From contig NZ_JYMR01000049.1 of the NCBI RefSeq assembly GCF_000938255.1, positions 1 through 64,000 of the forward strand: a stretch of DNA of 64,000 nucleotides, given 5' to 3'. Below the pieces are notes generated by a model. The model made no database searches, was not told the DNA's origin, and saw nothing but the letters and a program-made list of their open reading frames with translations. Source of the stretch: Bradyrhizobium sp. LTSP849 (GTDB lineage: Bacteria; Pseudomonadota; Alphaproteobacteria; Rhizobiales; Xanthobacteraceae). Of the stretch, positions 2,311 through 33,245 are shown piece after piece (within the stretch, counting starts at the first letter, position 1; the number at the start of each line of letters is the position of its first letter). Made by a program: the position numbers and the translations under genes.

Positions 2311-3804
2311 TTACTGCCACTCGGGACTACATGAGCCTCTCGACACCAAAAGCGGTTCGCGCCACGATGAGCGGGTGGTCGCATAAGCGACTGCCGGGGC
2401 GAGGCGCCTCACCCTGCCCACGGGAGTGTCGCGTATGAGTACATCCGGCTGAAGGAGATGCTGTTTCAGCATACCCAGCTCGCGCATTAACTCCGGTAAC
2501 TCATGAGGGCTGAGATCGCCACACAATCTCATTAAGGGGTTTTTGCCTCGATCAGCTTCAGGGATAAGCCCCAACGTCGGATACCACATTGCGTTGCGCG
2601 TCAGACTCACCGTGACTTGATAGCTTCCTCCCTCCCGAGCGCGCCTCAATAGCGCTGCTGCCGCGCCGGCAGCTCCGATATAGCCCGTAATGTAATCGTT
2701 CAACATTGCGGTCGGAGGCAAAGCTGGCGTGCCGCTCTTCCCTTCGAGTATTGCGAGTCCCGACACCGCGGAGCCCAGCATGTCAAAGCCACCCCGGTCG
2801 GACCACGGGCCATCCCAGCCATAGCAGCGAACGTTTACAACGATGATTCCAGGACGGATCGACGCAAGCTCTTCCGGAGAGAATCCGAACTCCGACATCT
2901 TTCGCGCACGGAAGCTGTCGACAAAGACGTCCGCTGTTCGTGCCAGATCACGACAGATCTCATTTTGCTTCGGGTCATGCAGATTAAGAAATGTCGATCT
3001 CTGCCCGACATTTGCATCATAGTAGACCCAATCATGCTCGAAATCGTCATAGTGATTGACGCATAGGACATCTGCTCCTTGCTCCGCCAAGGTTCGCCCG
3101 ACCACTGGACCTGCGATGGCGTGAGTCAGGCTCAGCACCTTTATTCCCTCGAGCGGGCGATTTGCAGGTGAGAACGGTTCGGGAGCGCTTTCTGCGATCT
3201 TTCGTATGGCTATGACAGGCTCGTTCGACAGATACATTCCCTGAGGGTGCTGAAGCCACTCCTCTGTTGTCCTGACCATGCAGAGCGTGAGGCCTTTTTC
3301 GTTGGCTGCATCCTCCAGCTCCTCAGCATCCCACTTTGCGATTGCAGCGCGAATGTGCTCGAAATCAGTGCCGCAATTGAAGAAGTTCCCCCATTTTGTC
3401 TGTTGATGAGGATAGACGCCGGACGGATAAACCCACCGGCCATCTTTGGTTTTGTACGGATATGCACCGAACGGGTGCCGGTTGCCAACCCAATCGGGGT
3501 ACGGATGCCCATTGATGGTCGGATGGAACGTCATGTCCGGGTTGATACCGTGGGCGGCCTTGCGCACATCAATGCTCAGATGTTGGCCCTGGCCGGTTCT
3601 TTCCTTCCATATGGCAGCAGGGCCGATCGCGGCGGCCATCGCCGCAATTGAAAATGCCTCTCCCATTCGAACAGCACTTGGAAACAGCGGATCAGCCCCA
3701 TAGATGCTGACGCTGCCGCCGACATCCTCGAGGTTCAGCCCTGCGGGTCTGATGAGTTCGTCAAGAGCCTTGATTGCATCGAGATTGAGCTGATCCTCCT
3801 TCAT
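2311..3804 (-). CDS. CaiB/BaiF family (class III) CoA-transferase, apparently circularly permuted
   Basis: A 497-residue member of the class III CoA-transferase family, which moves CoA between carboxylic acids. The order of parts is unusual. Residues about 33-215 resemble the second half of a normal CaiB protein (the linker helix with GQGQHLSIDV, then the small domain with GNRHPFGAYPYKTKDG). Residues 217-497 resemble the first half (PLEGIKVLSLTHAIAGP, then VDSFRARKMSEFGF and RCYGWDGPWSDRGGFD). The position that normally carries the catalytic Asp after the VDVSxLD-type strand reads SLTRNA (about 402-404) in the second part and DVRKA in the first, so the canonical Asp is not evident. The ATG at 3804 has AGGAG just upstream. 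It lies 139 bases downstream of the second CoA-transferase in a run of minus-strand genes. Confidence 0.85.
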   Translation of the reverse strand: MKEDQLNLDAIKALDELIRPAGLNLEDVGGSVSIYGADPLFPSAVRMGEAFSIAAMAAAIGPAAIWKERTGQGQHLSIDVRKAAHGINPDMTFHPTINGHPYPDWVGNRHPFGAYPYKTKDGRWVYPSGVYPHQQTKWGNFFNCGTDFEHIRAAIAKWDAEELEDAANEKGLTLCMVRTTEEWLQHPQGMYLSNEPVIAIRKIAESAPEPFSPANRPLEGIKVLSLTHAIAGPVVGRTLAEQGADVLCVNHYDDFEHDWVYYDANVGQRSTFLNLHDPKQNEICRDLARTADVFVDSFRARKMSEFGFSPEELASIRPGIIVVNVRCYGWDGPWSDRGGFDMLGSAVSGLAILEGKSGTPALPPTAMLNDYITGYIGAAGAAAALLRRAREGGSYQVTVSLTRNAMWYPTLGLIPEADRGKNPLMRLCGDLSPHELPELMRELGMLKQHLLQPDVLIRDTPVGRVRRLAPAVAYATTRSSWREPLLVSRGSCSPEWQ

Positions 3805-3943
3805 CGTACTCTCCTATCTTGGGCGGGATTTCCTATCGAGCACGCATTGTGCGTCGATCGATGGCGGCAGATGCATGGTCTCTCCTTCACGTATCGTCTA
3901 TGCCCAGCTCAGGGTCCCGCGAGTCCACCGAACGTCAGGGCAT

Positions 3944-5137
3944 TCAGGCTTGATTCAGGCCTAGTTCTCTGAGCAGAGCATCCCGGTGCTGATCGAGCCG
4001 GGGCGCTGGTTCCACAATGGCAAGAGCATCGCCGTGGAATTTGATGGGGGAGCCCGCGATGATAAGCGACCGCGTTGACGACACGGGCAGGTCCACCAGC
4101 ATCTGGCGATGATGAAGCTGGGGATCCTTCGCGACGGCAGCTACGTCGTTCACTGGACCGCAAGGTACTCCGGCCTGGGTGAGGATCGTTAGCCACTCGT
4201 CGGCGGGCAGGGTGTCCAAAGCTTCCTCGAGAGCCGCCTTGAGTTCGGCGTGATGCGAGCATCGGGCGTCGTTATCGGCAAAGCGAGTATCGCCAAGCAA
4301 GTGACTCAGTCCAAGGACCTCGAGCGTCCGCGCGAACAACCGGTCATTGCCTGCTGCCAGCGCGATATGGCCTTCGCCCGCTCGAAATACGCCGAAGGGC
4401 GTGATTGACGGATGTCGTGAGCCGATGGGGCCTGGAACGGTACCGTCCACTTGGTAGCGTACAAGAGCATTTTCCAGCAGGGCGACCTGAGAATCGAGCA
4501 TTGCGACGTCCACGTGCTTCCCCTCACGCGTCCGGGCTCTCTCAAGCAGCGCTGCTTGAATTCCGATCGCGCCAAACATCCCGGCGGCGATGTCACCTAT
4601 GGAAATTCCTACGCGCGTGGGGCGCTCCGCGCTTTCTCCCGTGAGACTGAGTACCCCGCCCATGGCTTGCACCACGATGTCGTAGGCAGGCAGAGTCCGA
4701 TAGGGTCCGGTCTGGCCGAACCCCGAGATCGACGCAAGAATCAGCGACGGCCTGCGCGCGTGAAGCTGCTCCCAGCCATAGCCGAGGCGCTCCATGGTTC
4801 CGGGAGAGAAATTCTCCACCAAGACGTCCGCGCTATCCAACAACTTTTCGAAGATTGCTCGATCGCCTTCGATCTTGAGATCGAGCGCAATCGACTCCTT
4901 GTTGCGGTTGATCGAGAAGAAGTATCCAGACACTTTCTTCCCGTCGTCTCCATCGACAAACGGTCCAATTTGGCGAGCGTCGTCACCCACAGTTGGCATC
5001 TCGACCTTCACAACGCGAGCGCCGAGATCGCCGAGAGTCATCGTGCAATAAGGGCCGGCCAATATACGGGTGAGGTCGATCACTACCAGACCGGCAAGGG
5101 GGCCCTGCGTTTTAGGATGCAACATCATGTCAACCAT
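3944..5137 (-). CDS. CaiB/BaiF family (class III) CoA-transferase
   Basis: A 397-residue CoA-transferase of normal family length and domain order. The N-terminal motif PLAGLVVIDLTRILAGPYC (13-31) starts the Rossmann-like domain. LVENFSPGTMERLGYG follows near 106-121, and the catalytic Asp is Asp215 within HVDVAMLDSQ. The small domain contains HPSITPFGVFRAGEGHIALA. It would load CoA onto an unknown carboxylate. The start overlaps the stop of the upstream crotonase gene by 8 bases, so the two are translationally coupled. Together with that crotonase it suggests a short catabolic operon under the divergent GntR regulator. Confidence 0.92.
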   Translation of the reverse strand: MVDMMLHPKTQGPLAGLVVIDLTRILAGPYCTMTLGDLGARVVKVEMPTVGDDARQIGPFVDGDDGKKVSGYFFSINRNKESIALDLKIEGDRAIFEKLLDSADVLVENFSPGTMERLGYGWEQLHARRPSLILASISGFGQTGPYRTLPAYDIVVQAMGGVLSLTGESAERPTRVGISIGDIAAGMFGAIGIQAALLERARTREGKHVDVAMLDSQVALLENALVRYQVDGTVPGPIGSRHPSITPFGVFRAGEGHIALAAGNDRLFARTLEVLGLSHLLGDTRFADNDARCSHHAELKAALEEALDTLPADEWLTILTQAGVPCGPVNDVAAVAKDPQLHHRQMLVDLPVSSTRSLIIAGSPIKFHGDALAIVEPAPRLDQHRDALLRELGLNQA

Positions 5138-5906
5138 TGTGTCGAGCCGCCTGGCTGGCGGCGATGTTCTGAAGAATGAGTTGGGGTTGGAATGCTGCCG
5201 TCAGAATGTCTCGCTGACGCTGCGTCGTGCCATTTCCAAGGGCAGATGCGTTCAGCACGGCCTTCAGCGCTCCCATGTTCTTTGTGGGCATGGCCCTCAA
5301 ATGGGACGCTTTTGTCATCGCTGTCATGAGAACGTCTCCCGCCGCGGCCAGCTCCGTCAGAAAGCCTGCCTGGAGCATCTCTTCGGCGCTCATGCGTTCA
5401 GCCATCAGCACGAGCGCTTTTGCGGCGTTCAGTCCCATACGGCTGACGTAGCGCTGTAGGGCACCTGCATAGAGCGGCAAGCCGAAGCGGGCGGCCGGCA
5501 TCTGCATGAACCCGTCCAGCGAGCCGATCCGGAAATCACAGGCGAGAGCCAAATCCGTTGCCCCGCCCAGAACGGGCCCGTTGATCGCCGCGATCGCAAT
5601 CAGGCGGGTGTTCTCGAACCTGTTCGCCACCGCCTCGAAGGCGTTGTCGCCTGCGTTAGACCGTGCACCGGATTTCAGATCATCGGTCAATGCGCGAAGG
5701 TCAAAACCCGCGCTGAAGTACTTCCCGCGGCCTGTCAGTATGAGGACGCGGATGTCCTGCGACGACTCGCATTCGTCAAGATGCCGTTGCAACGCGTCCA
5801 AATCCTGAGGCTCCAGGCGATTTGCGTTGGCGGGTCTATTTAGTTCGATCAGGGCCACATGTTCTGCCGGCTGGCTCAGCACCGGTACGGAAGCCGACTC
5901 GCTCAT
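5130..5906 (-). CDS. Enoyl-CoA hydratase/isomerase family (crotonase) protein
   Basis: A 258-residue crotonase-fold protein. The oxyanion-hole segments are visible as GKYFSAGFDLRAL and as INGPVLGGATDLALACD. The two glutamates that catalyse hydration in true enoyl-CoA hydratases are not in place: the GGGxE position reads GGATD and the second reads MPAARFGLP, so hydration by the usual mechanism is doubtful and an isomerase, hydrolase or other crotonase reaction is possible. I chose ATG 5906, which has GAGG four bases upstream; an upstream frame to 6080 would run across the divergent promoter. It is first in the minus-strand unit with the two CoA-transferases. Confidence 0.88.
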   Translation of the reverse strand: MSESASVPVLSQPAEHVALIELNRPANANRLEPQDLDALQRHLDECESSQDIRVLILTGRGKYFSAGFDLRALTDDLKSGARSNAGDNAFEAVANRFENTRLIAIAAINGPVLGGATDLALACDFRIGSLDGFMQMPAARFGLPLYAGALQRYVSRMGLNAAKALVLMAERMSAEEMLQAGFLTELAAAGDVLMTAMTKASHLRAMPTKNMGALKAVLNASALGNGTTQRQRDILTAAFQPQLILQNIAASQAARHNG

Positions 5907-5935
5907 TTTTCCTCTCGTATCCCAATTATGCCTTG

Positions 5936-5945
5936 TGGTATACCA
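5936..5945. promoter_or_regulatory. GntR/FCD operator candidate
   Basis: The perfect 10-bp palindrome TGGTATACCA sits in the 62-base gap between the divergent crotonase and gntR genes. Its NGTATACN core is typical of FCD-subfamily GntR operators. A second half site, GTACCACC, abuts the gntR start. The divergent arrangement suggests autoregulation and control of the crotonase/CoA-transferase operon. Confidence 0.65.
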
Positions 5946-5968
5946 ATTCTCTATTGTAAAGTACCACC

Positions 5969-6649
5969 ATGAGCAAGCCTTTAGTCTCAGAGAGTCTGTC
6001 GGATACGGTTCGCTCCAAGATGGAGAGTGAACTTGTTGCGGGGCACCTGGCGCCCGGTACCGTTCTGGATGAGCGTTCACTGGCCGAGCGATTTGGCGTA
6101 TCGCGCACGCCTGTTCGTGAAGCTGTGCTTCATTTGGCGGCGCAGGGATTGCTGAATGTCATTCCTCGTGTGGGCGTCGTCGTTCCCAAGTTGGGGATTC
6201 GGGAGCTGCTGGAACTCCTGGAGATGCTGGCGGAAATGGAAGGCGTGTGTGCCAGCTTTGCCGCGAAGCGGATGACCATCGTTCAGCGTGCGGAGTTCAG
6301 GGCGGCACTTAAGGCCTGCCGCCAGGCCGCCAGGAACGGCGACTCAAAACGGTATGCGGGCGCGAACAAGAAATTCCACGAGATTATCTACGCGGCCGCC
6401 CATAACGAGTGGGCCGTGCGTCAGGTAAGGGCACTGCGGATGCGCTGTGCTGCCTATCAACGATCGCGCTTCGACTTGGCGGGCCGATTGGACAAGTCGC
6501 TGGGTGAGCACGAAAGGATCGTGGCGGCGATCGAGGCGGGCGAGGTGGCGCGGTCGCGTCTCGCAATGCAGGAGCATATCTCGATTGGCGGACAGGATTT
6601 TGCCGATCTGGTGAGGGGCCTCGATCCAAACCTGCTTGCGTCCGGATAG
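5969..6649 (+). CDS. GntR family transcriptional regulator, FCD (FadR C-terminal) subfamily
   Basis: A 226-residue regulator. Residues about 10-75 form the GntR winged helix, with the signature LAERFGVSRTPVREAVLHLAA. The rest is the all-helical FCD ligand domain, with the metal/ligand-binding pattern around FHEIIYAAAHNEW and a distal EHERIVAAIEAGE. This family senses organic acids or acyl-CoA type ligands. It is divergent from the crotonase and CoA-transferase genes and a TGGTATACCA palindrome lies between them, so it most likely represses that operon. Downstream genes encode OpgC proteins, which need not be targets. Confidence 0.93.
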   Translation: MSKPLVSESLSDTVRSKMESELVAGHLAPGTVLDERSLAERFGVSRTPVREAVLHLAAQGLLNVIPRVGVVVPKLGIRELLELLEMLAEMEGVCASFAAKRMTIVQRAEFRAALKACRQAARNGDSKRYAGANKKFHEIIYAAAHNEWAVRQVRALRMRCAAYQRSRFDLAGRLDKSLGEHERIVAAIEAGEVARSRLAMQEHISIGGQDFADLVRGLDPNLLASG

Positions 6650-6678
6650 GCGTGCCCGTGCTACGAGTCGAGAAGAAA

Positions 6679-7935
6679 ATGAGTGGATGTTACCTTCGTG
6701 GCATCCGATTTCCTCTGGGCGCGGATTGGATTTCCCAGGGCGCTCCCGAAAGCGAGAGCATCGCGGTTGCGGCATCTACGCCGATGCCGACTTTTGCTCT
6801 CGGTCGTCGGGAGTTGCGGCTCGATCTTTTTCGTGGCCTGGCGCTTTGGCTCATCTATATCGATCACGTCTCGCCGGACCGCCTGACCTGGTTCACGATT
6901 CGCAACTACGGCTTTAGCGACGCTGCTGAAATCTTCGTTTTCATCTCGGGCTTCACGGCAGCGCTGGTCTACGGCAGAGCTACCTTCGAGTTCGGCATCT
7001 TAATTGGCGCAGCACGCGTGTTGCGACGGGTATGGCAAATCTATGCCGCGCACTTGCTGCTATTTGTCTTCCTGATAGCCGAGATTGCCTTCGTCACCAC
7101 GATCTCTGATAAGCCGTCATTCTACATTCAGGAAATGGAGGTCGGGGAGTTCTTTAGGCAGCCGGACGTCGAGATGATCCAAGTTCTGCTGATGCGCTTC
7201 CGTCCCCTGAATATGGATGTCTTGCCGCTTTACGTCGTGTTGATGGCCTTTCTGCCGCTGATCCTGCAGTGCTCCAGATGGCACCGAGATCTTCCGCTCG
7301 TTCTTGCAGCCGGACTCTACATCCTCACACTTCACTACGATTTGCATCTGTCGACCTTTCCGGACGGCTTCTGGTCTTTCAATCCCTACGCATGGCAGCT
7401 CCTTTTTGTCTTCGGTGTCTGGTGTGCGCTGGGAGGCGCGCAGCGATTGTCGCCCGTTCTCAAGTTTTCGCCGACCTTTTGGGTCGCAATCGCCTATCTG
7501 GGCGCGGCCTTCTCTCTGACGTTGACGTGGCATTTCCCGTTTCTGGAAAGGCTGTTGCCCGGCTGGCTGGTGCGATTGATCTATCCGATCGACAAGACCG
7601 ACCTCGACATCTTGAGATTTGCGCACTTCCTGGCGTTGGCCGTCGTGGCCTTACGCTTCGTGCCGGGCGGCTGGGCAGGGTTGAAGTCACCTTGGGTTCA
7701 GCCTCTCATCCTTTGCGGACAACATTCGCTTCAGATTTTCGCACTTGGCGTCGCCTTGTCGTTCTCGGGCTACGCGCTGCTGACTGAGACCAATGCCGGC
7801 GTTGGGCTGCATGTCATCGTCGGTGTCATCGGCATTCTGATTCTGTATGGCGTTGCCGGGACGTGCGCCTGGTACAGGTCGAAGATGTCGAGCTTAGCGC
7901 GTGCAGAAGCAATCTCCCCAACACTGACCGCGTGA
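6679..7935 (+). CDS. opgC: OpgC-type membrane acyltransferase (paralogue 1)
   Basis: A polytopic inner-membrane protein of 418 residues from ATG 6679, with about ten hydrophobic segments. It carries the OpgC family landmarks: an N-terminal basic R-x-LRLDLFRG motif, RNYGFSDAAEIFVFISGF, NMDVLPLYVVLM, SFNPYAWQLLFVFG and YPIDKTDLDILRF. OpgC was described in Rhodobacter sphaeroides as the enzyme that adds succinyl groups to osmoregulated periplasmic glucans. The start is uncertain: an in-frame GTG at 6652 and an ATG at 6784 are alternatives, the latter giving the usual short N-terminus before the motif. A second opgC follows 167 bases downstream. No glucan synthase gene is present in the window. 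Confidence 0.85.
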   Translation: MSGCYLRGIRFPLGADWISQGAPESESIAVAASTPMPTFALGRRELRLDLFRGLALWLIYIDHVSPDRLTWFTIRNYGFSDAAEIFVFISGFTAALVYGRATFEFGILIGAARVLRRVWQIYAAHLLLFVFLIAEIAFVTTISDKPSFYIQEMEVGEFFRQPDVEMIQVLLMRFRPLNMDVLPLYVVLMAFLPLILQCSRWHRDLPLVLAAGLYILTLHYDLHLSTFPDGFWSFNPYAWQLLFVFGVWCALGGAQRLSPVLKFSPTFWVAIAYLGAAFSLTLTWHFPFLERLLPGWLVRLIYPIDKTDLDILRFAHFLALAVVALRFVPGGWAGLKSPWVQPLILCGQHSLQIFALGVALSFSGYALLTETNAGVGLHVIVGVIGILILYGVAGTCAWYRSKMSSLARAEAISPTLTA

Positions 7936-8102
7936 TGTGCAGAGTGGGGAATCACCGATGAATTGTAGGAAGCCATGTCCGCTTCAGATCTATCCGATGC
8001 CCGAGGCGCGCTCCGGCCGCGGTGGCATGGATTGCGATCGATCCACTGGGCAACCTCGTAACCAAAGCTTGATCACTAGCCTCATCGATTGGATTGATTG
8101 AC

Positions 8103-9278
8103 ATGGCACAGCAAGGCACGGCCCCTTTTGTTGTTGAACGAGATTTGCGGCTCGACCTCTTGCGTGGTGTGGGCCTCTGGATGATTTTTCTTGATCATAT
8201 CCCGGACGATGTCATCTCTTGGCTGACGCTGCGCAACTACGGGTTTTGCGACGCTGCGGAGTTTTTTGTCTTCATCTCCGGCTACCTGCTCGGCTTCATC
8301 TACGCTCCGATTGTCGCCGCAGGCCAATTCGTGCCTGCCTCGAAACGGCTGTTGCTGCGGGCCTGGCAGATGTATGTCGCTCATCTTCTCCTTTTCCTCG
8401 CCTTCACGGCCCAGATTGCTCGTACGGCGAGGAGGTGGGACAATCCTATGTATAAGGACGAGTTCAACGTCGCCAACTTTCTTGCGCATCCCGACGAGTT
8501 GATCAGCAAGGCGCTAACCCTGCAATACAAGCCGGTCGACCTTGACGTATTGCCGCTCTACATCGTCCTTGTTTTGGTTTCGCCGTTCGTGTTGTGGTGT
8601 CTCGTGCGTCGTCCCAATCTGACTATGGTCGGTTCGGCCGTGCTCTACGCATTCGCACGCTACTTTGACTGGAACTTGCCATCATACCCGAGTGGTGCGA
8701 CCTGGTATTTCAATCCCTTTGCCTGGCAACTGCTGTTCTTCTTCGGTGCTTGGTGCGGGTGCGGAGGGCGTGAACGGCTCAAATGGTTGCACGATTCGCG
8801 CATCGTTCTCAGTGTTGCGATTGCCTGGATACTCTTCGCGTTCGTCATCGTGATGACCTGGCACAGCGCCTTCCTTGAATCGCTGATTCCGAGCTGGCTG
8901 ATCAAGGTGATCTATCCGATCGACAAGACCGATCTGGATATGTTCCGATTCTTCCATTTTCTGGCGCTTGTCGTGATCATCACGCGATATCTCCATCGTG
9001 ACTGGTCCGGGCTGAATTCGCGCTGGTTGCGCCCGCTGATATTATGCGGCCAGCATTCGCTTCCATTGTTCTGCCTCGGGGTATTCCTGTCCTTCGGTGC
9101 ACACTGGATCCTGGTGCAGTGGAAAAGCGCCTTCATCGAGCAATTCGCGGTCAGCTTTGCCGGGTTTGCGATCATGACAGCCGCCGCCTGGCTCCTGGAC
9201 CGTGCACAGAGGATTCCAAACCTTTTCGTCGACACTGGATTCGATGCGAAAGCAGGAACACAGCCGAGCGGGGCATGA
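8103..9278 (+). CDS. opgC: OpgC-type membrane acyltransferase (paralogue 2)
   Basis: A 391-residue polytopic membrane protein with the same landmarks as the preceding gene: RDLRLDLLRG near the N-terminus, RNYGFCDAAEFFVFISGY, LDVLPLYIVL, YFNPFAWQLLFFFG and YPIDKTDLDMFRFF. It is expected to transfer an acyl group, classically succinyl, to periplasmic glucans. I chose ATG 8103 over the TTG at 8094. It ends 84 bases before the right tRNA-Gly repeat, so it is the last gene of the putative island. The two tandem copies are clearly related but well diverged, which argues against a recent duplication. Confidence 0.87.
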   Translation: MAQQGTAPFVVERDLRLDLLRGVGLWMIFLDHIPDDVISWLTLRNYGFCDAAEFFVFISGYLLGFIYAPIVAAGQFVPASKRLLLRAWQMYVAHLLLFLAFTAQIARTARRWDNPMYKDEFNVANFLAHPDELISKALTLQYKPVDLDVLPLYIVLVLVSPFVLWCLVRRPNLTMVGSAVLYAFARYFDWNLPSYPSGATWYFNPFAWQLLFFFGAWCGCGGRERLKWLHDSRIVLSVAIAWILFAFVIVMTWHSAFLESLIPSWLIKVIYPIDKTDLDMFRFFHFLALVVIITRYLHRDWSGLNSRWLRPLILCGQHSLPLFCLGVFLSFGAHWILVQWKSAFIEQFAVSFAGFAIMTAAAWLLDRAQRIPNLFVDTGFDAKAGTQPSGA

Positions 9279-9362
9279 TGTCGTCTCTCTTCCGCAATTG
9301 CGTTGGGATGTCGTCGCTATCGATGGAAGGCGCGGCGTTCCGCTCGCGTATTTAAAGGATCG

Positions 9363-9405
9363 TCCAAGCTGAATACGAGGGTTCGATTCCCTTTCACCCG
9401 CTCCA
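9363..9405 (+). repeat. tRNA-Gly(UCC) 3'-half fragment, right copy (att-like direct repeat)
   Basis: This copy matches the left copy at 2096-2137 from TCCAAGCTGAATACGAGGG through the encoded CCA, except for one inserted T between the T stem and the acceptor strand (CCCTTTCACCC against CCCTTCACCC). The identity begins in the anticodon loop, a known crossover location for tRNA-targeting integrases. No 5' half of a tRNA is present upstream. Confidence 0.85.
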
Positions 9406-9701
9406 GCCTTTTCACGGACTTGGCGAGACGGTCGGATTTCATTCCGACAGATGGGTGGCGCTCGCGGCGCGAGAGCACCGCTCTCATATTTCCCCCTTGA
9501 GTGCCGGTTGCAGGCGGATGCCTGCGCGCTTGCGGTTAGTCAATTGGATGAACTTTGACAATCTCTGCCTATTGCGACAATCGATTTTTCGGCCGGTCCG
9601 CTGTTAAGCTGGCATCGTCGACGTTAGCGGTCTTTCGAGAGCGCCCCCAAAAGGACCGGCCCGATCCCATGAAATTCTTGTTTTCTTCGGGTCAGATTAT
9701 A

Positions 9702-9717
9702 GACTGTTCGATCAGTC
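9702..9717. promoter_or_regulatory. TetR operator candidate 1 (upstream of tetR)
   Basis: GACTGTTCGATCAGTC is a palindrome with one broken pair, 41 bases upstream of the tetR start. It differs by one base from the perfect box at 10511-10526. The pair of near-identical boxes on both sides of the tetR gene supports autoregulation plus control of the downstream genes. Confidence 0.65.
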
Positions 9718-9757
9718 AGCTCTTGCGAGGCCCCAAGCGGCAAGTGTATGTGGTTGC

Positions 9758-10417
9758 ATGGGAACAGCTAAAAAGAGCCTCAAAATTCCCGCGGTCGCTT
9801 CGGGGCGAGATGCGATTTTGGACGCTGCCGAACAAACGTTCGGCTCTCATGGCTTCCACGGCGGGAGCATGAGTCAGATCGCCCAGCTTGCGGGAGTAGC
9901 GCAGTCACTGCTCCACTATCATTACAAGACCAAGGATCTTCTTTACGAGGCGGTTTTCGAGCGGCGCGCAACTCAAATTCGGGACAAGCGTCAGGCTCGC
10001 CTGGACGCGCTTTTCAGCCGCGCTGGCAAGGTGCACCTTGAAGAGGTGCTCGAAATACTTTTCATCTCGCTTGAAGAACTCCTGGAGCTCAAAGAGTTCG
10101 AGTTGCGCAATTACGTTCATATGGTCGGCGACGTAACGCTGTCGAGCAATAAGCGATCGATCGAAATAGTAAAACGCCACTACGACCCCTCGGCCGAACT
10201 TTTCATCGAGGCAATCCGCAAAGTCTATCCTGAACTTTCAATGGATGAAGCCATTTGGAGCTATCTGTTCGCAATCGGAGGCCGCATGCAGGCCCATGCT
10301 TCCGTCGATCGCGCTGTCCGCCTTGGTTCACATAAGGCGAGTAGTCGCAAGCAATATGAGATCCTCGTGACGTACGCTGCTGCCGGAATCAAAGCGATAG
10401 CCAAGGCTCGGCGCTAG
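9758..10417 (+). CDS. TetR family transcriptional regulator
   Basis: A 219-residue TetR protein. The helix-turn-helix occupies about residues 18-62 (ILDAAEQTFGSHGFHGGSMS, then IAQLAGVAQSLLHYHYKTKD), and the C-terminal part is a helical ligand-binding domain resembling the AcrR/CecR type. It has its own box at 9702-9717 and a second one at 10510-10527 in front of the DUF1330 and aldo/keto reductase genes, so it probably represses both. The inducer is unknown; the reductase nearby hints at a reactive carbonyl. Confidence 0.92.
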   Translation: MGTAKKSLKIPAVASGRDAILDAAEQTFGSHGFHGGSMSQIAQLAGVAQSLLHYHYKTKDLLYEAVFERRATQIRDKRQARLDALFSRAGKVHLEEVLEILFISLEELLELKEFELRNYVHMVGDVTLSSNKRSIEIVKRHYDPSAELFIEAIRKVYPELSMDEAIWSYLFAIGGRMQAHASVDRAVRLGSHKASSRKQYEILVTYAAAGIKAIAKARR

Positions 10418-24733: not shown

Positions 24734-25684
24734 ATGACCGACACCAAGCCCATTCGCCGCATCGCCATCATCGGCACCGGCGTGATCGGGGCGAGCTGGA
24801 GCTCGCTGTTTCTCGCCAAGGGACTTCAGGTCGTCGCCACCGACATCGCACCGAACGCGGAAGCCGCGCTGAGGAAGTTCGTCGCGACGGCGTGGCCGGC
24901 GCTCGAGCGATTGGGCCTATCGCCCGGAGCGTCGCAGTCGAACCTCAAATTCACGCCAGACATTGCGCAGGCACTCACCGGCGCCGACCTCGTCCAGGAG
25001 AACGGGCCCGAGCGGATCGAATTCAAGCAGAAGCTCTATGGCCAGCTCGACGAGCTGTTGCCGCCCGACGTGATCATCGCATCGAGCTCGTCGGGGCTTA
25101 CCATGAGCGAAATCCAGAAGGGCGCTGCGTCCCATCCCGAGCGCTGCGTCATCGCCCATCCGTTCAATCCGCCCCACTTGATTCCGCTGACGGAGATCGT
25201 CGGCGGGGCAAAGACCTCGGAAGCCACGATCCGGCGCGCGGCGGAATTCTACACGTCGATCGGGCAACGAACGGTGCGCCTCAACAAGGAAATGCCGGGC
25301 CATGTCGCCAACCGTCTCCAGGCCGCGCTGAGCCGCGAGGTTTATTACCTTGTCGCCGAGGGCGTGGTGAGCGCCGCGGACGTCGACACCGCCCTGAGCT
25401 GGGGCCCGGGTCTGCGCTGGGGCGTCATGGGCAGCTTGATGCTCAACCATCTCGGTGGCGGTCCGGGCGGCATCGAGCACTTCTTCCAGCAGTTCACCGG
25501 CCCGATGACGGCCTGGTGGAAGACCCTCGGCTCGCCGGTGCTGACGCCGGAGGTGCAAAAGAAGCTGATCGACAGCGTCCATGCCGAAGCCGGATCGCGC
25601 ACCATCGCGGAGTTGGAGGCGGAGCGCGACGAAGTCCTGCTCGGCCTGATCGAGCTGCGCAAGAAAGCGGCCAAGCCGAGCTAG
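24734..25684 (+). CDS. 3-hydroxyacyl-CoA dehydrogenase family protein (carnitine dehydrogenase-like)
   Basis: A 316-residue single-domain NAD-dependent dehydrogenase. The N-terminal Rossmann motif is IAIIGTGVIGASWSSLF (10-26). The catalytic core shows SSSSGLTMSEIQ and AHPFNPPHLIPLTEIVGG, which carry the His-Glu pair of the 3-hydroxyacyl-CoA dehydrogenase family, and the C-terminal helical domain ends near residue 310. Length and layout match L-carnitine dehydrogenase and lambda-crystallin-like members, so a small 3-hydroxy acid or its CoA ester is the likely substrate. A GGAGA site lies before the ATG. It is the second gene of the operon that continues with an acyl-CoA dehydrogenase. Confidence 0.92.
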   Translation: MTDTKPIRRIAIIGTGVIGASWSSLFLAKGLQVVATDIAPNAEAALRKFVATAWPALERLGLSPGASQSNLKFTPDIAQALTGADLVQENGPERIEFKQKLYGQLDELLPPDVIIASSSSGLTMSEIQKGAASHPERCVIAHPFNPPHLIPLTEIVGGAKTSEATIRRAAEFYTSIGQRTVRLNKEMPGHVANRLQAALSREVYYLVAEGVVSAADVDTALSWGPGLRWGVMGSLMLNHLGGGPGGIEHFFQQFTGPMTAWWKTLGSPVLTPEVQKKLIDSVHAEAGSRTIAELEAERDEVLLGLIELRKKAAKPS

Positions 25685-25773
25685 CGAAATCGGCGGCGCC
25701 GGCGAAATCAGTCACACGTTCAAACCGTCCTTCAATTTTTAGGCTTCCGAGCCGCAGCGAGGAGAGATCGCAA

Positions 25774-26994
25774 ATGCCCACCGCAACCCCAGCAGGCAAG
25801 ACCGCCGCGCAGAAGCCGGCGCCCGCACCCAATGGCGACTTCTATCAGCTGGTCGACCTTCTCACTCCCGACGAGAGAGCGCTGGTCAAGAAGGTGCGGA
25901 CCTACATGGAGACCAAGGTCCAGCCGGTCATCAACAAGTACTGGTCCGATGACGCGTTTCCGTTCGAGCTGCTGCCGTCGTTCAAGGAGCTCGGCCTCGG
26001 CGGGCTCGGTTTCGAGGGCTATGGCTGCGCGGGCGGTAGCCAGAAGCTGTTCGGCTTCGTCGCCATGGAGCTGGCGCGCACCGATGCCTCGTTCTGCACG
26101 TTCTTCGGCGTGCATAGCGGCCTCGCCATGGGTTCGATCTATCTCGATGGCTCCGAGGAGCAGAAGCAGAAATGGCTGCCGGCGATGGCGCGCTGGGAAA
26201 AGATCGGCTGCTTCGGCCTCACCGAGCCGCTGGTCGGTTCCGGAACGAGCGGCGGTCTGACCACGACGGCCAAGCGTGAAGGCGATACCTGGATCCTCAA
26301 CGGACAGAAGCGGTGGATCGGCAACGCGCCGTGGTGCGACATCTCCATCATCTGGGCGCGCGATCTTGCCGACAATCAGGTCAAGGGGTTCATCGTCGAG
26401 AACAAGTCGACGCCCGGCTTCAGCGTCGAGAAGATCGAGCACAAGATCGCACTCAAGGTGGTGCAGAACGGCCAGATCACGCTGAAGGACGTGCGGGTGC
26501 CTGAAGCTAACCGCCTCCAGAGTGGCAATTCGTTCCGTGACACCGCGCGCGTGCTGCGGATGACGCGGTACATGGTGGGCTGGGCGTCGACCGGCATCCA
26601 GATGGGCGCATACGAGGCCTCCCTCAAATACGCTCAGGAGCGATTACAATTCGGCAAGCCGATCGCTTCGTTCCAGCTGATCCAGGATCTGCTCGCCAAG
26701 ATGCTTGGCAATCTAACCGCGTGCCAGTGCCTGATGCTCCGCTTGGCGCAGCTCGATGACGAAGGCAAGCTTGGCGACCATCACGCGGCGCTGGCGAAGG
26801 CGTTCTGCACCTCGAAATCACGCGAGACGGTGTCATGGGGCCGCGAGGTGCTGGGTGGCAACGGCATCGTCGCCGACTACAACGTCGCGCGTTTCTTCGC
26901 CGATGCTGAGGCGCTGTACTCCTACGAAGGCACCTATCAGATGCAGAATCTGATCGTGGGCAAGGCCATCACCGGCCACGGCGCTTTCCTCTGA
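25774..26994 (+). CDS. Acyl-CoA dehydrogenase, glutaryl-CoA dehydrogenase-like
   Basis: A 406-residue FAD flavoprotein that introduces a double bond into an acyl-CoA and passes electrons to ETF. CFGLTEPLVGSGTSGG is the flavin/substrate motif, QFGKPIASFQLIQDLLAKM and EVLGGNGIVADYNVAR follow, and the catalytic base is Glu385 in YEGTYQ, the position used by glutaryl-CoA dehydrogenase. The residues that hold the glutaryl carboxylate in that enzyme (Glu87 and Arg94) align with Ala101 and Cys108 here, so glutaryl-CoA is an unlikely substrate. ATG 25774 has GGAG upstream; longer upstream frames overlap the previous gene. A close paralogue begins at 63687. Confidence 0.92.
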   Translation: MPTATPAGKTAAQKPAPAPNGDFYQLVDLLTPDERALVKKVRTYMETKVQPVINKYWSDDAFPFELLPSFKELGLGGLGFEGYGCAGGSQKLFGFVAMELARTDASFCTFFGVHSGLAMGSIYLDGSEEQKQKWLPAMARWEKIGCFGLTEPLVGSGTSGGLTTTAKREGDTWILNGQKRWIGNAPWCDISIIWARDLADNQVKGFIVENKSTPGFSVEKIEHKIALKVVQNGQITLKDVRVPEANRLQSGNSFRDTARVLRMTRYMVGWASTGIQMGAYEASLKYAQERLQFGKPIASFQLIQDLLAKMLGNLTACQCLMLRLAQLDDEGKLGDHHAALAKAFCTSKSRETVSWGREVLGGNGIVADYNVARFFADAEALYSYEGTYQMQNLIVGKAITGHGAFL

Positions 26995-27006
26995 CCTCTT
27001 AGCGGC

Positions 27007-27026
27007 GCCGGCGCTCCAGCGCCGGC
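27007..27026. promoter_or_regulatory. Intercistronic hairpin between acyl-CoA dehydrogenase and enoyl-CoA hydratase genes
   Basis: GCCGGCGCT and AGCGCCGGC form a perfect 9-bp GC-rich stem with a 2-base gap, 13 bases after the dehydrogenase stop. No T tract follows. It may protect the upstream mRNA or attenuate reading into the hydratase gene. Confidence 0.4.
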
Positions 27027-27042
27027 TGCCTATCCAGGAGAC

Positions 27043-27900
27043 ATGACTATGGTTTCAGGAACTGCACCGTTCACTCCTTCGCCTGCAACGGCACCAAGCT
27101 CCGCCCCCAGAGCGGCGCTGGCCCTTGCAAACGTCCAGTACGAGAAAAAGGGCATGATCGCCTACGTCACGGTGAATCGGCCGAAAGTTCTGAACGCGCT
27201 CAATACGCCGACATGGACCGACCTGCACGCCGCGTTCGAGGACGCAAAGGCGGACGCGTCCGTGCGCGGCGTGATTCTCACCGGCGCAGGCGACAAGGCG
27301 TTCATCGCCGGCGCCGACATCAGTGAACTTGCGCATGTCGACGCCTACGATGCCGAGGAGTCCAGCCGGTTCGGGCAGGGTGTGCTGGACCTCATCGAAA
27401 ATCTCGGCAAGCCGGTGATCGGGGCGATCAACGGCTTCGCGCTCGGCGGCGGCTGCGAGACCGCGATGGCCTGCACCATCAGGATCGCAGCGGAGCATGC
27501 CAAATTCGGTCAACCGGAGGTCAAGCTGGGCCTGTTGCCTGGTGGTGGCGGCACTCAACGCCTGCCGCGCCTGGTGGGAAAGGGTCGTGCGTTGCAGCTG
27601 ATCCTCACGGGCGAGACGATTTCCGCGCAAGAAGCCTATCGCATCGGCCTCGTCAACGAAGTCGTTGCCGCAGCCAGCCTGATCGATCGTGCCGAGACGA
27701 TTCTGAAGCAGATCATGGCCAACGCGCCGATCGCCGTGAAGTTCTCACTGGAAGCCGCCAACAAGGGGATGGAGACGAGCCAAAGCGAAGGCCTTGTGCT
27801 GGAAGCCTCCTTCTTCGGCATTTGCGCCGCCACCGAAGACAAGAAGGAAGGCACCGCCGCCTTTCTCGAGAAACGTGCGCCGCAGTTTCGCGGACATTGA
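27043..27900 (+). CDS. Enoyl-CoA hydratase
   Basis: A 285-residue crotonase with a proline-, alanine- and threonine-rich N-terminal extension of about 28 residues. Both hydratase glutamates are in place: GGGCETAMAC and FGQPEVKLGLLPGGGGTQRL. The oxyanion segment is KAFIAGADISELA. It should hydrate a trans-2-enoyl-CoA produced by the preceding acyl-CoA dehydrogenase, giving the 3-hydroxyacyl-CoA for the operon's dehydrogenase. AGGAG lies upstream of ATG 27043; a second ATG at 27049 is possible. Confidence 0.94.
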   Translation: MTMVSGTAPFTPSPATAPSSAPRAALALANVQYEKKGMIAYVTVNRPKVLNALNTPTWTDLHAAFEDAKADASVRGVILTGAGDKAFIAGADISELAHVDAYDAEESSRFGQGVLDLIENLGKPVIGAINGFALGGGCETAMACTIRIAAEHAKFGQPEVKLGLLPGGGGTQRLPRLVGKGRALQLILTGETISAQEAYRIGLVNEVVAAASLIDRAETILKQIMANAPIAVKFSLEAANKGMETSQSEGLVLEASFFGICAATEDKKEGTAAFLEKRAPQFRGH

Positions 27901-27939
27901 AACAAGGCCGCTCTCTACGAGGAGTTGGAAAGGACGCCC

Positions 27940-29166
27940 ATGGCAAACGACAATATTTTCTCCGGACTGAAGGTGGTAGACCTCGCGAGCTTCATCGCGG
28001 GCCCCAGCGCGGCCGTGATCTTGTCCGATTTCGGCGCCGACGTGATCAAGGTCGAGCCGCCGAGCGGCGAGCTGTGGCGACATGCGAACCATATGCCGCC
28101 GCAGCCGGTCGCTGACGATGCCTATCCCTGGCATCTGGCCAATCGCAACAAGCGCGGCATGGCGCTTGATCTGAAAACTCCGGGCGCCCATCAGGTTCTC
28201 GAGAAGCTGGTCAAATGGGCCGACGTCCTCATCGTCAACACGCCGCATCCCGCGCGCAAGAAATTGAAGCTCGAATATGAAGATGTGGCGGCCTGGAATC
28301 CGCGGCTGATCTACGCGGACCTCACGGGTTTCGGCGACAAGGGTCCGGATGCGAATCTTCCCGGCTTTGACATCACGTCATACTGGGCACGCAGTGGGTT
28401 GTTGTCGATGACGCGCGATGCCGGCGCGCCGCCGACCTGGCCGGTGGCCGGCAGCGGCGACAATGCCACCGCCGTCGGGCTCTATTCGGCGATCGTTACC
28501 GCCTTGTATCGTCGCGAGCGCACGGGGGAGGGAGCGCATGTCACGACCTCGCTGCTTGCTGAGGGCGTGTGGTCCGCAAGCGTCTCGATCCAGGCCGCGC
28601 TGTGCGATGCAAAGTTCTTCGGGCCGCATGATCGTATGCACCCCGCAAATGCGGCCATGAACGTGTATCGTGCCAAGGATGAGACCTGGTTCGTTCTCCT
28701 CATCACGCCCGACAAGGTGGAGGCTGTGGCGAAGGCGATCGGCCGGCCCGATCTTCTGACCGATCCGCGGTTCTCCGACCCGGCGAAGCTGATGGCGAAC
28801 ATGACGGAGCTCACGGCGATCCTCGACCAGACCTTCTGTGCGGAGCCGATGGCACATTGGTACGAGGTGTTCAACGGCGTTCACGTGACGTTCGGAGCGG
28901 TGCGCGGGCCGCAGGAGGTGATCAACGATCCCCAGCTCCGGGCGAACGACATCATCGTTCCGCTCGAGGGTGCGGGCGGCAAGCTGACATCCACGATCTC
29001 CAGCCCGCTCCAGGTGCATGGTGTCGCCAAGGTGTCGGCAAAGCGTGCCCCGAAGATCGGCGAACACAACGACGAAGTTCTCCGGCAACTGGGATATAGC
29101 GCGGCCGAAATCGATGGTCTGCGTGCGAGCGGTGCCATTCCGAAGGCAAAGGAACACGCGGCTTAG
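27940..29166 (+). CDS. CaiB/BaiF family (class III) CoA-transferase, catalytic Asp not conserved
   Basis: A 408-residue CoA-transferase of usual order, starting with FSGLKVVDLASFIAGPSAAV and ending with a small-domain and C-terminal part (SPLQVHGVAKVSAKRAPKIG). The strand that normally carries the catalytic Asp reads HVTTSLLAEGVW: Ala207 stands at the expected Asp, with Glu208 next to it. The enzyme may use the Glu, be inactive as a transferase, or only bind CoA esters. ATG 27940 was chosen over the TTG at 27925. It lies in the operon with the acyl-CoA dehydrogenase and hydratase, where a transferase would activate the starting acid. Confidence 0.9.
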   Translation: MANDNIFSGLKVVDLASFIAGPSAAVILSDFGADVIKVEPPSGELWRHANHMPPQPVADDAYPWHLANRNKRGMALDLKTPGAHQVLEKLVKWADVLIVNTPHPARKKLKLEYEDVAAWNPRLIYADLTGFGDKGPDANLPGFDITSYWARSGLLSMTRDAGAPPTWPVAGSGDNATAVGLYSAIVTALYRRERTGEGAHVTTSLLAEGVWSASVSIQAALCDAKFFGPHDRMHPANAAMNVYRAKDETWFVLLITPDKVEAVAKAIGRPDLLTDPRFSDPAKLMANMTELTAILDQTFCAEPMAHWYEVFNGVHVTFGAVRGPQEVINDPQLRANDIIVPLEGAGGKLTSTISSPLQVHGVAKVSAKRAPKIGEHNDEVLRQLGYSAAEIDGLRASGAIPKAKEHAA

Positions 29167-29183
29167 CGCGACGGCACGGTTGG

Positions 29184-29199
29184 GGCGGCGCAAGCCGCC
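29184..29199. promoter_or_regulatory. Intercistronic hairpin with GCAA tetraloop
   Basis: GGCGGC and GCCGCC pair around a GCAA loop, 17 bases after the CoA-transferase stop. The stem is short and no T run follows, so an mRNA-stability role is more likely than termination. Confidence 0.3.
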
Positions 29200-29249
29200 T
29201 CGAACCTGCGCTTGCAGTGAAATTCACCAGAGGGACCAGGATTTCGACC

Positions 29250-30035
29250 ATGGATGAGATCGTTACCGAACATGCCGCAGGCATCCTGCGCATCCAGCTG
29301 AACCGCCCGACAAAGCGGAACGCCATGACGTCAGCCATGTACGTGGCTCTCGCAGGCATCTTCAACGCGGCGGCGAATGACGAGAGCACACGCGTAGTGC
29401 TCTGGCACGGCGCGGGAGATTCGTTCTGCGCCGGCAACGATATCGACGACTTTCTCAAGAACCCTCCCGGCCCCGGCGAATCGCCACAGGCCGCCCTCAT
29501 GAAGGCGTTGGTCGACTTCGACAAGCCATTGGTCGCGGCAGTCCACGGCGCCGCCATCGGCGGCGGCACCACCATGCTGACGCACTGCGACTTCATCTAC
29601 GCCGGCGAGAGCACGAAATTCCAGATGCCCTTCATCAATCTGGCCGTCGTGCCTGAATTCGGATCGAGCTGCTCCGTGCCGGCGCGGATCGGTCACCTCC
29701 GCGCGGCCGAGCTGATCTTGCTGGGAGCTGCCTTTGATGCCAGGCGCGCAGTGGAGCTGGGTCTGGCGACTGAATTCGTCCCCGACAACGATCTCCGGGC
29801 GAAAGCAACCGACACGGCCCGGAAGTTGGCAGCGAAGCCCGCGGCTGCGCTACAGGCCAGCAAGCGACTCATGAAGCAGCCATTTCGCGAGCAGATCAAG
29901 GCCGCGATGAAGGCCGAGAACGAAGAGTTCAGTACGCAAGTCCGCTCCGAAGACGCAAGAGAGGCGTTCACCGCTTTCGTGGAAAAGCGCAAGCCTGACT
30001 TCACGCGAAACATCAAGTCTCAAGCGACTGCATGA
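29250..30035 (+). CDS. Enoyl-CoA isomerase-like crotonase
   Basis: A 261-residue crotonase. Oxyanion segments are DSFCAGNDIDDFL and VHGAAIGGGTTMLTHCD. Both hydratase glutamate positions are changed (GGGTT; MPFINL), but a glutamate appears in VVPEFGSS, the place of the catalytic Glu in delta3,delta2-enoyl-CoA isomerases of the ECI2/PECI type. It would therefore shift a double bond so that unsaturated acyl-CoAs can enter the operon's hydratase step. ATG 29250 was chosen; the frame from 29217 adds 11 residues. Its stop overlaps the FMN reductase start by an ATGA. Confidence 0.88.
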   Translation: MDEIVTEHAAGILRIQLNRPTKRNAMTSAMYVALAGIFNAAANDESTRVVLWHGAGDSFCAGNDIDDFLKNPPGPGESPQAALMKALVDFDKPLVAAVHGAAIGGGTTMLTHCDFIYAGESTKFQMPFINLAVVPEFGSSCSVPARIGHLRAAELILLGAAFDARRAVELGLATEFVPDNDLRAKATDTARKLAAKPAAALQASKRLMKQPFREQIKAAMKAENEEFSTQVRSEDAREAFTAFVEKRKPDFTRNIKSQATA

Positions 30036-30613
30036 CTATGGAGAAGCCGATGAATGTGTGCGTGTTGGTTGGAAGCCTGCGGAAGGCTTCGTTCAACGGG
30101 ATGCTGGCGAACGCACTGATCTCGCTGGCGCCGTCCTCGATGAAGCTCGACATCGTCGAGATCGGACAATTGCCATTCTACAATGAAGATCTCGACACCG
30201 CAGCGCCGCCCGCGCCATGGACCGCGTTCCGCCAGCGCATCAAGGCCGCCGATGCAGTTTTGTTCGTCACGCCGGAGTATAACCGGTCGGTGCCTGCCGT
30301 GCTCAAGAATGCACTGGACGTCGGCTCCAGGCCGTATGGACGCAGCGTCTGGGACCGCAAGCCCGGTGCGATCGTCAGCGGCTCGCCTGGGGCGATCGGA
30401 GGCTTCGGCGCCAATCATCATCTCAGGCAATCGCTCGTGTTCCTGAACGTGCCGACCCTGCAGCAGCCTGAGGCCTACCTCGGCCATGTCGACAAGCTCT
30501 TCGATGAACAAGGCAAAATTGCCGGCGACAGCACCCGCAAATTCCTGGAAGGGTTCATGCAGACGTTCGCCAATTGGGTCGAGACGATCCGATCCCAGGG
30601 GCAGCGCGTCTGA
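30032..30613 (+). CDS. NADPH-dependent FMN reductase
   Basis: A 193-residue flavodoxin-fold protein of the NADPH:FMN reductase (ChrR/Lot6-like) family. The FMN phosphate loop is GSLRKASFNGML, the isoalloxazine region is TPEYNRSVPAVLKNALD and the third loop is GSPGAIGGFGANHHLRQ. It reduces flavin or quinone with NAD(P)H. The ATG overlaps the stop of the isomerase gene, so it is coupled to the operon. Its use in this pathway is not clear; flavin supply or quinone detoxification are options. Confidence 0.93.
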   Translation: MTMEKPMNVCVLVGSLRKASFNGMLANALISLAPSSMKLDIVEIGQLPFYNEDLDTAAPPAPWTAFRQRIKAADAVLFVTPEYNRSVPAVLKNALDVGSRPYGRSVWDRKPGAIVSGSPGAIGGFGANHHLRQSLVFLNVPTLQQPEAYLGHVDKLFDEQGKIAGDSTRKFLEGFMQTFANWVETIRSQGQRV

Positions 30614-30653
30614 CGTCTTGCGGCAAGAGCGAGCCGATATCGCAGCGTAACGC

Positions 30654-31103
30654 TCAAAAATTGATTGGCCGCATTTGGTCGAATTCGTCGCGGCACGCAT
30701 GGCTGAAGTCATGCAACAGATCGATCGTGCCATCGATGGCCATTTCGCGTAGTTCGACGAAGCTCTTGTCCGGCTCCAGATAGGTGTCCAGGATTTTTCG
30801 GGTGACGTCTTCGGCATGATGGACCACCGGCTTTGAAGATATCGCCCGCATCGCGCTCATTTTGGCGTAAAGGCTGACGAGGCTCGGAATGTCGGCCTTA
30901 TCGTGCTGGAGCGCATCGATGTAACTTTTCGCGGCGTCTTCGATGAAGTCCCTGTACAGGGTCTGTCGGCGAGTCTCCTCATGAAGGACCCACTGGGCGC
31001 GGACCTGGCTTCGTTGGCTTCGCCAATTCGCTATTCCGCTCGTCAAGCCACCGACGGCTGCTCCCGTGAGCGCGGCGAGCGCGGAGATGATGGAGGCGTC
31101 CAC
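30654..31103 (-). CDS. Conserved hypothetical protein with N-terminal membrane segment
   Basis: A 149-residue protein starting with GTG 31103. The first 25 residues (ASIISALAALTGAAVGGLTS) look like a membrane anchor or a glycine-zipper helix; the rest is helical and charged (RAQWVLHEETRRQTLYRDFIEDAAKSY) and ends in an acidic/aromatic tail. I do not recognise a named domain. It is convergent with the FMN reductase gene and upstream of the NADH dehydrogenase on the same strand. Confidence 0.7.
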   Translation of the reverse strand: MDASIISALAALTGAAVGGLTSGIANWRSQRSQVRAQWVLHEETRRQTLYRDFIEDAAKSYIDALQHDKADIPSLVSLYAKMSAMRAISSKPVVHHAEDVTRKILDTYLEPDKSFVELREMAIDGTIDLLHDFSHACRDEFDQMRPINF

Positions 31104-31163
31104 AGGTGCTATCTCCGACCGGCTGGAGGAGCCGGCAGTAACGGTTATCGGGCCTGGCCTCGA

Positions 31164-32498: not shown

Positions 32499-32618
32499 GG
32501 GTGCACCGACTCTGTTGGGCCAGCGCCCTGTCCGGATAGATACCGGGGAGCTGCGGACTATTCTTGGATGGCGCTGCGGTGCATTGAACGACCGTGCGTC
32601 ATCACGTTTTCAGATTGG

Positions 32619-32978
32619 TCAATTGCGTTGCGCGGTCCAGTAACCGGAACATTGCTCACTTCCCGTGTGACCGCTCCATCTGCCGCCGCCCGAGGTCGCC
32701 GTAAGCCTGCCGGTGCCGGATGCGAATTTCTCGTGAACCGTCACTGAAGCTCGAACCGAACCGGATCTCGCAACGTAACCTCTGAACTTCACGAGATTCG
32801 GGTGGGTCACGATGCCGTCGGAAATGTTGACGGTGAAGTTGTAGCTGGGATCGCATGCGCCCCTTTGCGTCACGAAGACGAGGTCCCAGGAACCGTCATA
32901 AGTCGAACGCGCGTGTGCCACAGGTGATGACGCGATAAAGCAGGCGGCCGCAATCATCGAGAGCGAGGTCGTCTTCAT
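32619..32978 (-). CDS. Small secreted protein of unknown function
   Basis: A 119-residue protein with a Sec signal peptide (KTTSLSMIAAACFIASSPVAHA, likely cleaved after AHA at about 23). The mature part is glycine- and serine-rich with YDGSWDLVFVTQRGACD near the start and SEQCSGYWTAQRN at the end, so one disulfide between the two cysteines is likely. The WDL..GRWSG pattern is seen in small secreted proteins of Bradyrhizobium; no function is known to me. GGAG precedes the ATG. It is monocistronic. Confidence 0.8.
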   Translation of the reverse strand: MKTTSLSMIAAACFIASSPVAHARSTYDGSWDLVFVTQRGACDPSYNFTVNISDGIVTHPNLVKFRGYVARSGSVRASVTVHEKFASGTGRLTATSGGGRWSGHTGSEQCSGYWTAQRN

Positions 32979-33111
32979 TGGTGTTCTCCATCAGGTAAAG
33001 CGTCTGCTCGAACGATGACCTGCGTTAGGAAAAGCCTGTGCAGAGTGCTTGTCGAATTGTGCTCGAATTATCCCAAATCATGCGATCGCAGCGCGTGTCT
33101 CCGGGGTCGAG

Positions 33112-33127
33112 CTTGTCGACTGACAAG
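33112..33127. promoter_or_regulatory. Inverted repeat upstream of the cyo operon
   Basis: CTTGTC and GACAAG form perfect 6-bp arms around GACT, about 120 bases ahead of the heme o synthase start, in the gap between the secreted protein and the quinol oxidase operon. A role in oxidase regulation is a guess from position. Confidence 0.3.
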
Positions 33128-33245
33128 TTTGAGCATGATTGGCCCCAATCGAGCAGCCACGTTCAATCACGGTCGAAAGCGACGATACATATTGAATGCG
33201 CATACTGACGGCTGTTCGCGCGGAAAACGTCGGCGACCGCCTTGA

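Follow-up and report, generated by a model that had tools for sequence, protein, structure and literature searches.

The window analysed here is a stretch of 64,000 nucleotides from Bradyrhizobium sp. LTSP849 (contig NZ_JYMR01000049.1, positions 1 to 64,000), near the start of which lies, on the minus strand, a gene for a protein with the fold of a class III (CaiB/Frc) CoA-transferase and an altered order of its segments. The features of this gene and of the two genes upstream of it are as follows.

2311..3804, minus strand: entire gene for the rearranged class III CoA-transferase-fold protein, 497 aa (open reading frame with ATG start).
3811..3815, minus strand: probable ribosome-binding site (AGGAG), 6 nt upstream of the ATG (read from the sequence).
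3229..3723, minus strand: N-half, residues 28-192, with the first copy of the crossover segment and the only small domain (hhalign and N-half model).
3568..3570, minus strand: codon of D79, an Asp three residues before K82.
3559..3561, minus strand: codon of K82, the catalytic-Asp position in the first copy (profile alignment).
3271..3273, minus strand: codon of R178.
2566..3165, minus strand: C-half, residues 214-413, holding the large-domain start in full and the crossover segment for the second time (profile alignment, PDB and structure matches).
2596..2598, minus strand: codon of R403, the catalytic-Asp position in the second copy (profile alignment).
2326..2430, minus strand: residues 459-493, likely the canonical C-terminal segment closing the large domain (weak by sequence; structure model).
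3944..5137, minus strand: normally ordered class III CoA-transferase, 397 aa, with Asp215 present; possible operon partner.
5130..6080, minus strand: enoyl-CoA hydratase-like open reading frame overlapping the start of the neighbouring CoA-transferase (family recognised by eye).

The open reading frame of 497 codons begins with an ATG exactly where the first-pass annotation had placed it, and its frame is closed three codons upstream of that start. Scans for promoters and terminators at the gene gave scores at the level of shuffled sequence, and the two RNA-family matches near it both fell far under their gathering scores. Pfam CoA_transf_3 (PF02515) matches the protein in two stretches, the better of which aligns residues 218-407 with profile positions 1-201, and the score of 195.4 bits against a curated cut-off of 23.3 places the protein within the superfamily. 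However, it stays under the cut-off of all six NCBIfam equivalog models listed, which cover succinate-glutarate, CoA:oxalate, formyl-CoA, mesaconate and carnitine CoA-transferases (best score 94.5 bits against 750). A sequence search of the PDB pairs residues of about 210-430 with the N-terminal half of class III enzymes and, among the matches listed, the Brucella protein 4ed9 gives an additional weak match to the N-half (residues 28-126 on chain 154-255, i-Evalue 0.018).

Segment order was read from a profile-profile alignment (hhalign) of 74 family rows against eight normally ordered proteins of the same genome, with canonical numbering taken from the neighbour at 3944-5137. The 74 rows were collected by tblastn with the window protein (E <=1e-30, at least 140 bits; 82 frames minus copies), and since they were picked by similarity to it, the family counts lean towards its own kind. 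Residues 28-192 correspond to canonical 159-344 (probability 97.9, E 6.2e-13) and residues 214-413 to canonical 10-225 (probability 100, E 6.6e-48), and residues 459-493 give a weak sequence match to canonical 352-385 (probability 4.8). The normal order of large-domain start, small domain and large-domain end is not found in the window protein; canonical 159-225 is present in both halves, the small domain once, in the first half, and the large-domain start once, in the second. The repetition of the linker strand in each half, as first noticed from the letters of the sequence, is thus borne out by alignment. Compared directly, the two halves match weakly (hhalign probability 17.7 and E 0.0014, versus 0.4 and 0.15 for a reversed control), and the doubled segment is better supported by the alignment of both halves to the same canonical columns. 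With an HMM built from 27 normally ordered paralogues, all from one genome, the window's own, the C-half start was detected in 74 of the 74 family rows, the pattern with the N-half first in 63 of the 74 as against 0 of the 27 normally ordered rows, and the C-terminal tail in 2 of the 74. The altered class III segment order of the window protein is therefore well supported. The first-pass annotation had taken it for a permutation; the unusual order stands, whereas a clean circular permutation is ruled out, since canonical 159-225 is doubled while the small domain is single. Judged by the aligned segments, the arrangement looks as if a CaiB-like gene had been duplicated in tandem and had then lost the large-domain start of its first copy and the small domain of its second; this would simply explain the doubled 159-225 and the single copies of the other two segments, in an order of events that we infer.

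Predicted structures agree with this map. An AlphaFold2 model of the whole protein (four sequences) had a mean pLDDT of 64.2 and a pTM of 0.70, with 168 of 497 residues below 50 pLDDT. By Foldseek and VIA-align, model residues 213-476 fall on class III enzymes from the chain N-terminus to about residue 333-408, as with Rv3272 (5yit_B: Z 17.4, 204 residues, 2.8 A, model 213-475 on chain 5-370). The aligned part of the whole model amounts to about 200-240 residues, against class III chains of about 350-430, a partial length that is expected if the C-half skips the small domain, the skipped part being read from the ends of the aligned ranges. Normal order did not appear: the alignment of the whole model starts at residues 213-215 in 46 of the 49 class III matches listed and at 211, 212 and 70 in the others. 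The end of the chain, up to residue 476, returns in the model to the C-terminal part of the canonical large domain. When the N-half was modelled alone (pLDDT 65.9, pTM 0.40), it fell on canonical small domains, mostly with residues 106-195; the top match (Z 8.7, 78 residues, 3.0 A) places model 109-187 on racemase 220-311, and class III enzymes and racemases make up 49 of the 50 matches listed, at a Z of about 8 that lies near the tool's 'common' level. The strong fold-search matches, among those listed, are likewise class III enzymes and racemases, and the predicted models contain both the large-domain (Rossmann) fold, at the Z of 17.4, and the small-domain fold, at the weaker Z of 8.7.

The large and small folds, together with Pfam CoA_transf_3, are shared with Rv3272 (5yit), formyl-CoA transferase (1p5h), CaiB (1xk6) and Mct (8apq, 7xkg). 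However, these enzymes run through the canonical segments once from start to end, whereas the window protein has the order 159-344 / 10-225 / (352-385), a doubled crossover segment and no acid at the catalytic column, and its family has weakened CoA motifs. The alpha-methylacyl-CoA racemases (1x74, 9i2t) have the same fold and gave the top-ranked small-domain matches to the N-half, other matches lying within Z 1 of them, but unlike the window protein they keep the normal segment order; the racemase residues named as mutated in PDB titles are H126, D156 and E241.

A search for homologues of the same order, as had been suggested, found the architecture to be common to a broad family and no one-off, which rules out a fusion or frameshift artefact. 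In a quick tree of the C-half, 30 representatives of the 74 rows (less than 70% identical to each other) lie on one side of a branch and the 27 normal rows, which comprise 26 different genes, on the other (SH-aLRT 99), and the window protein groups with L012, L001 and a branch bearing Tat-like signals, hereafter the Tat branch (SH-aLRT 94). The same architecture occurs in Tsukamurella, Mangrovibacter and a Burkholderiales MAG. At E <=1e-35, matches were found in 39 of 60 relatives and in 44 of 398 genomes of the phylum, the window's own genome being counted in both, and most of these belong to more distant groups of about 470 residues. Less common is the branch of the window protein itself, which at E <=1e-85 was found in 11 of 265 genomes of the genus, the window's own included. 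Among 72,556 plasmid records 25 held a match, of which 20 cover at least 80% of the query, and where listed these plasmid genes are already annotated 'CoA transferase', or once 'hypothetical protein'. None of 190 pattern matches in viruses was a relative.

At the column of the neighbour's Asp215 the window protein has K82 (first copy) and R403 (second copy), so that the absence of the Asp from both halves, as originally claimed, is upheld, and neither Asp nor Glu stands at the start of the active-site helix. Across the 74 rows, the first-half column holds H 42, K 12, L 5, A 5, E 3, Q 3, R 3 and D 1, and the second-half column Q 44, R 26 and G 4, which leaves Asp or Glu in 4 of 74 rows in the first half and in 0 of 74 in the second. 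However, among the 27 normally ordered paralogues of the same genome, which include the neighbour at 3944-5137, this column holds E 11, D 10, A 4 and Q 2, so that 17 of the 27 are without Asp (11 of them with Glu) and 6 without any acid. The loss of the Asp, which the first-pass annotation had presented as an oddity, is therefore genuine in both halves and yet, taken alone, unremarkable. Two deposited structures also depart from Asp at this column when aligned to the neighbour, namely a human SUGCT chain with Ser (PDB 9br6/9br7) and a Brucella 'formyl-CoA transferase' with Glu (PDB 10uh); either residue may have been engineered.

Three further motif positions were tracked, which we take to be CoA contacts in formyl-CoA transferase. 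At the K of 'NK.S', K is found in 26 of the 27 normal rows (R in the other), as against L 38, R 34, K 1 and H 1 in the 74 family rows; the N of 'ENF' is kept in 23 of 27 normal versus 11 of 74 family rows, and the R/K of 'R.G' in 26 of 27 versus 19 of 74. The window protein has R269, S297 and E305 at these positions, and two motif positions remain basic in it (R269, R299). The positions were mapped by motif and not from a bound structure, and it is likewise by motif likeness that they are matched to Arg75, Asn100 and Arg104, the residues named for Mct in PMC9813914. To judge from these motifs, the CoA contacts appear weakened in the family and partly kept in the window protein.

Upstream of the rearranged gene, 139 bp away on the same strand, lies the normally ordered CoA-transferase gene, and the gene order on this strand is ech-caiB-rearranged gene. 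The DNA around the rearranged gene is somewhat lower in GC, and about 170 bp from the gene, on the plus strand at 2094-2137, is the 3' part of a tRNA-Gly(TCC). Elsewhere in the genome this tRNA is present as one intact copy (L128) and two fragments (L130, L131) behind similar upstream sequence; the fragments look like attachment-site remnants of integrated elements, and the rearranged gene is near the edge of what is likely a mobile island. Farther along the window, at 24734-34268, open reading frames recognised by eye as 3-hydroxyacyl-CoA dehydrogenase, NADH dehydrogenase-like and heme o synthase-like recall the plasmid clusters that host relatives of the rearranged gene, here far from the gene itself.

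The surroundings of relatives are varied. On the plasmids of Bradyrhizobium CB82 and Sinorhizobium chiapasense a relative adjoins two 3-hydroxyacyl-CoA dehydrogenase genes, and on a Streptomyces plasmid one adjoins acyl carrier protein and polyketide synthase genes. In the Tat branch, the conserved N-terminus comes after a twin-arginine motif, a hydrophobic stretch and an alanine-rich end (L041, L042 and L077; L089 and L091), signals which were read by motif and eye; the motif was matched in 3 of the 74 rows, and two further relatives also show one. An export signal on a protein of the CoA-transferase fold is unexpected. The loci of this branch at which an OprB-family porin gene was found are as follows.

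L072, positions 7186-10155.
L095, positions 5456-8469.
L073, L077, L093 and L094.

At each of these six loci the OprB-like gene comes immediately after the relative's gene and on its strand, with Pfam OprB tested for three, and at L095 its open reading frame overlaps that of the relative by 4 bases. A Tat-like signal is readable in five of the six, one of which carries an in-frame stop, and two of the six copies are damaged or unreadable (L077 with the in-frame stop, L090/L094 without a readable start). The branch is rare, as a class-wide search with a Tat-branch protein at E <=1e-85 found it in at least 1 of 385 genomes, the window's own, among the up to four candidates listed per genome; it occurs in 3 of 149 genomes of one family and 2 of 149 of another, with the centre genome counted each time. 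Another OprB-family gene, for which no similarity to the Tat-branch OprB was detectable, is found near the pair L069/L096, the closest to the window protein. In L069 a second, very divergent rearranged copy (L069:8363-9946) lies two genes from the window protein's closest relative, with the OprB-family gene between the two.

These observations allow a model for the window protein, which we hold tentatively and at slightly less than even confidence. It proposes that the protein belongs to a family arisen by duplication with loss, that it carries out no Asp-anhydride transfer, and that in this genome it may serve as a non-transferring ligand-binding partner of the upstream ech and CaiB genes. 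After the tandem duplication of a CaiB-like gene and the two losses, one chain would hold one complete large domain in its C-half, one small domain in its N-half and two copies of the crossover segment. Class III CoA-transferases are described as interlocked dimers in PMC9813914 and PMC9196870; here, both sides of the active site would probably come from one chain, which may make the protein a self-contained half-dimer with no need to interlock. Asp-anhydride CoA transfer is most likely absent, because there is no acid at either catalytic column and the CoA-contact motifs of the family are eroded, and since segment order and catalytic acid both fail, the window protein is not filed as an active CoA-transferase; its family as a whole probably has a task different from the standard reaction. 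However, the lack of Asp may still permit activity, because Glu is common at the column and 6 of the 27 normal members have A or Q. The partner role is suggested by gene order, and against it stand the facts that this order is seen in the window only and that a normally ordered CaiB gene adjoined the rearranged gene in none of 18 family neighbourhoods (13-20 kb each; tblastn at 1e-5). In BbsEF, a succinyl-CoA:benzylsuccinate CoA-transferase, the Asp is present in one subunit and missing from the other. This two-subunit member (9fn0, 9fol) offers a model for an Asp-less partner subunit; however, both of its subunits are about 410 residues long, whereas the window protein is rearranged and its partner hypothetical. 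A wider proposal, which is possible but doubtful, is that in this family the interlocked dimer became a single-chain half-dimer, that CoA-transfer chemistry was abandoned, and that the Tat-exported branch, with the OprB porin, may bind a non-CoA ligand outside the cytoplasm.

The non-transferring ligand-binding partner is the favoured reading, and a moved catalytic acid and a non-CoA role are its serious rivals, each of them unlikely in our estimate. By the first, the protein would be an active CoA-thioester enzyme whose nucleophilic carboxylate is now that of D79, a shift of three residues, to the point where the active-site helix of the first copy begins; there it may form a new site with R81, H133 and R178. 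D79 replaces the Ser of the canonical 'VS.LD' motif, and, lying near the site and conserved in 68 of 74 rows, it may still act as the acid; in L058, the sole row with Asp at the canonical first-half position, residue 79 is Ser. Of the other proposed residues, R178 is conserved in 73 of 74 rows and H133 in 62 of 74, and the two sym-plasmid relatives beside dehydrogenase genes would also suit such an enzyme. However, some rows are free of acid at both spots (L048 with Q79 and R82, L002 with N79 and A82), and the weakened CoA-contact motifs speak against it. To our knowledge, CoA is absent outside the cytoplasm, and exported relatives would meet none there. By the second rival, about as improbable, the family would have been repurposed for a non-CoA ligand, with the Tat/OprB branch indicating a general binding role linked to the envelope or to uptake and the window protein being a cytoplasmic cousin. 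Such a role would fit the twin-arginine motifs, the constant presence of the OprB-like gene at the Tat-branch loci, and the adjacency of an OprB-family gene to the window protein's nearest relative (L012, in L069). However, a signal peptide would not fit ahead of the window gene's start, inspection by eye showed no OprB gene near it, two of the Tat-branch copies are damaged or unreadable, the OprB of L069/L096 is not detectably like that of the Tat branch, and other relatives are placed among CoA-metabolism genes.

Two further explanations are far less probable. DddD is a tandem CoA-transferase-like DMSP lyase of about 800 residues with two complete domains. An ordinary tandem fusion of this kind might be read from the two Pfam CoA_transf_3 stretches, since DddD also has two CoA-transferase segments per chain; however, the window protein, at about 500 residues, misses large parts of each domain, and the segment map, with one large-domain start and one small domain, speaks against it. 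A decaying gene or an assembly artefact, to which the nearby tRNA-Gly fragment with the likely island edge, the lower GC and the in-frame stop in 2 of 74 family rows might point, is highly improbable given the same architecture in many species, the other 72 rows without a stop, the start signal and the retained conserved positions.

Among the top-ranked literature matches, drawn mostly from outside subscription papers, none was found that describes this architecture, an Asp-less rearranged family or a link to OprB. A natural family in which both sides of the site seemingly lie in one chain may provide a test of how the knots of interlocked dimers arise and come undone. The label 'CoA transferase' covers proteins without an acid at the catalytic column, some of whose relatives bear export signals, and the CoA-transferase activity of family members so labelled should thus not be assumed in pathway annotation.
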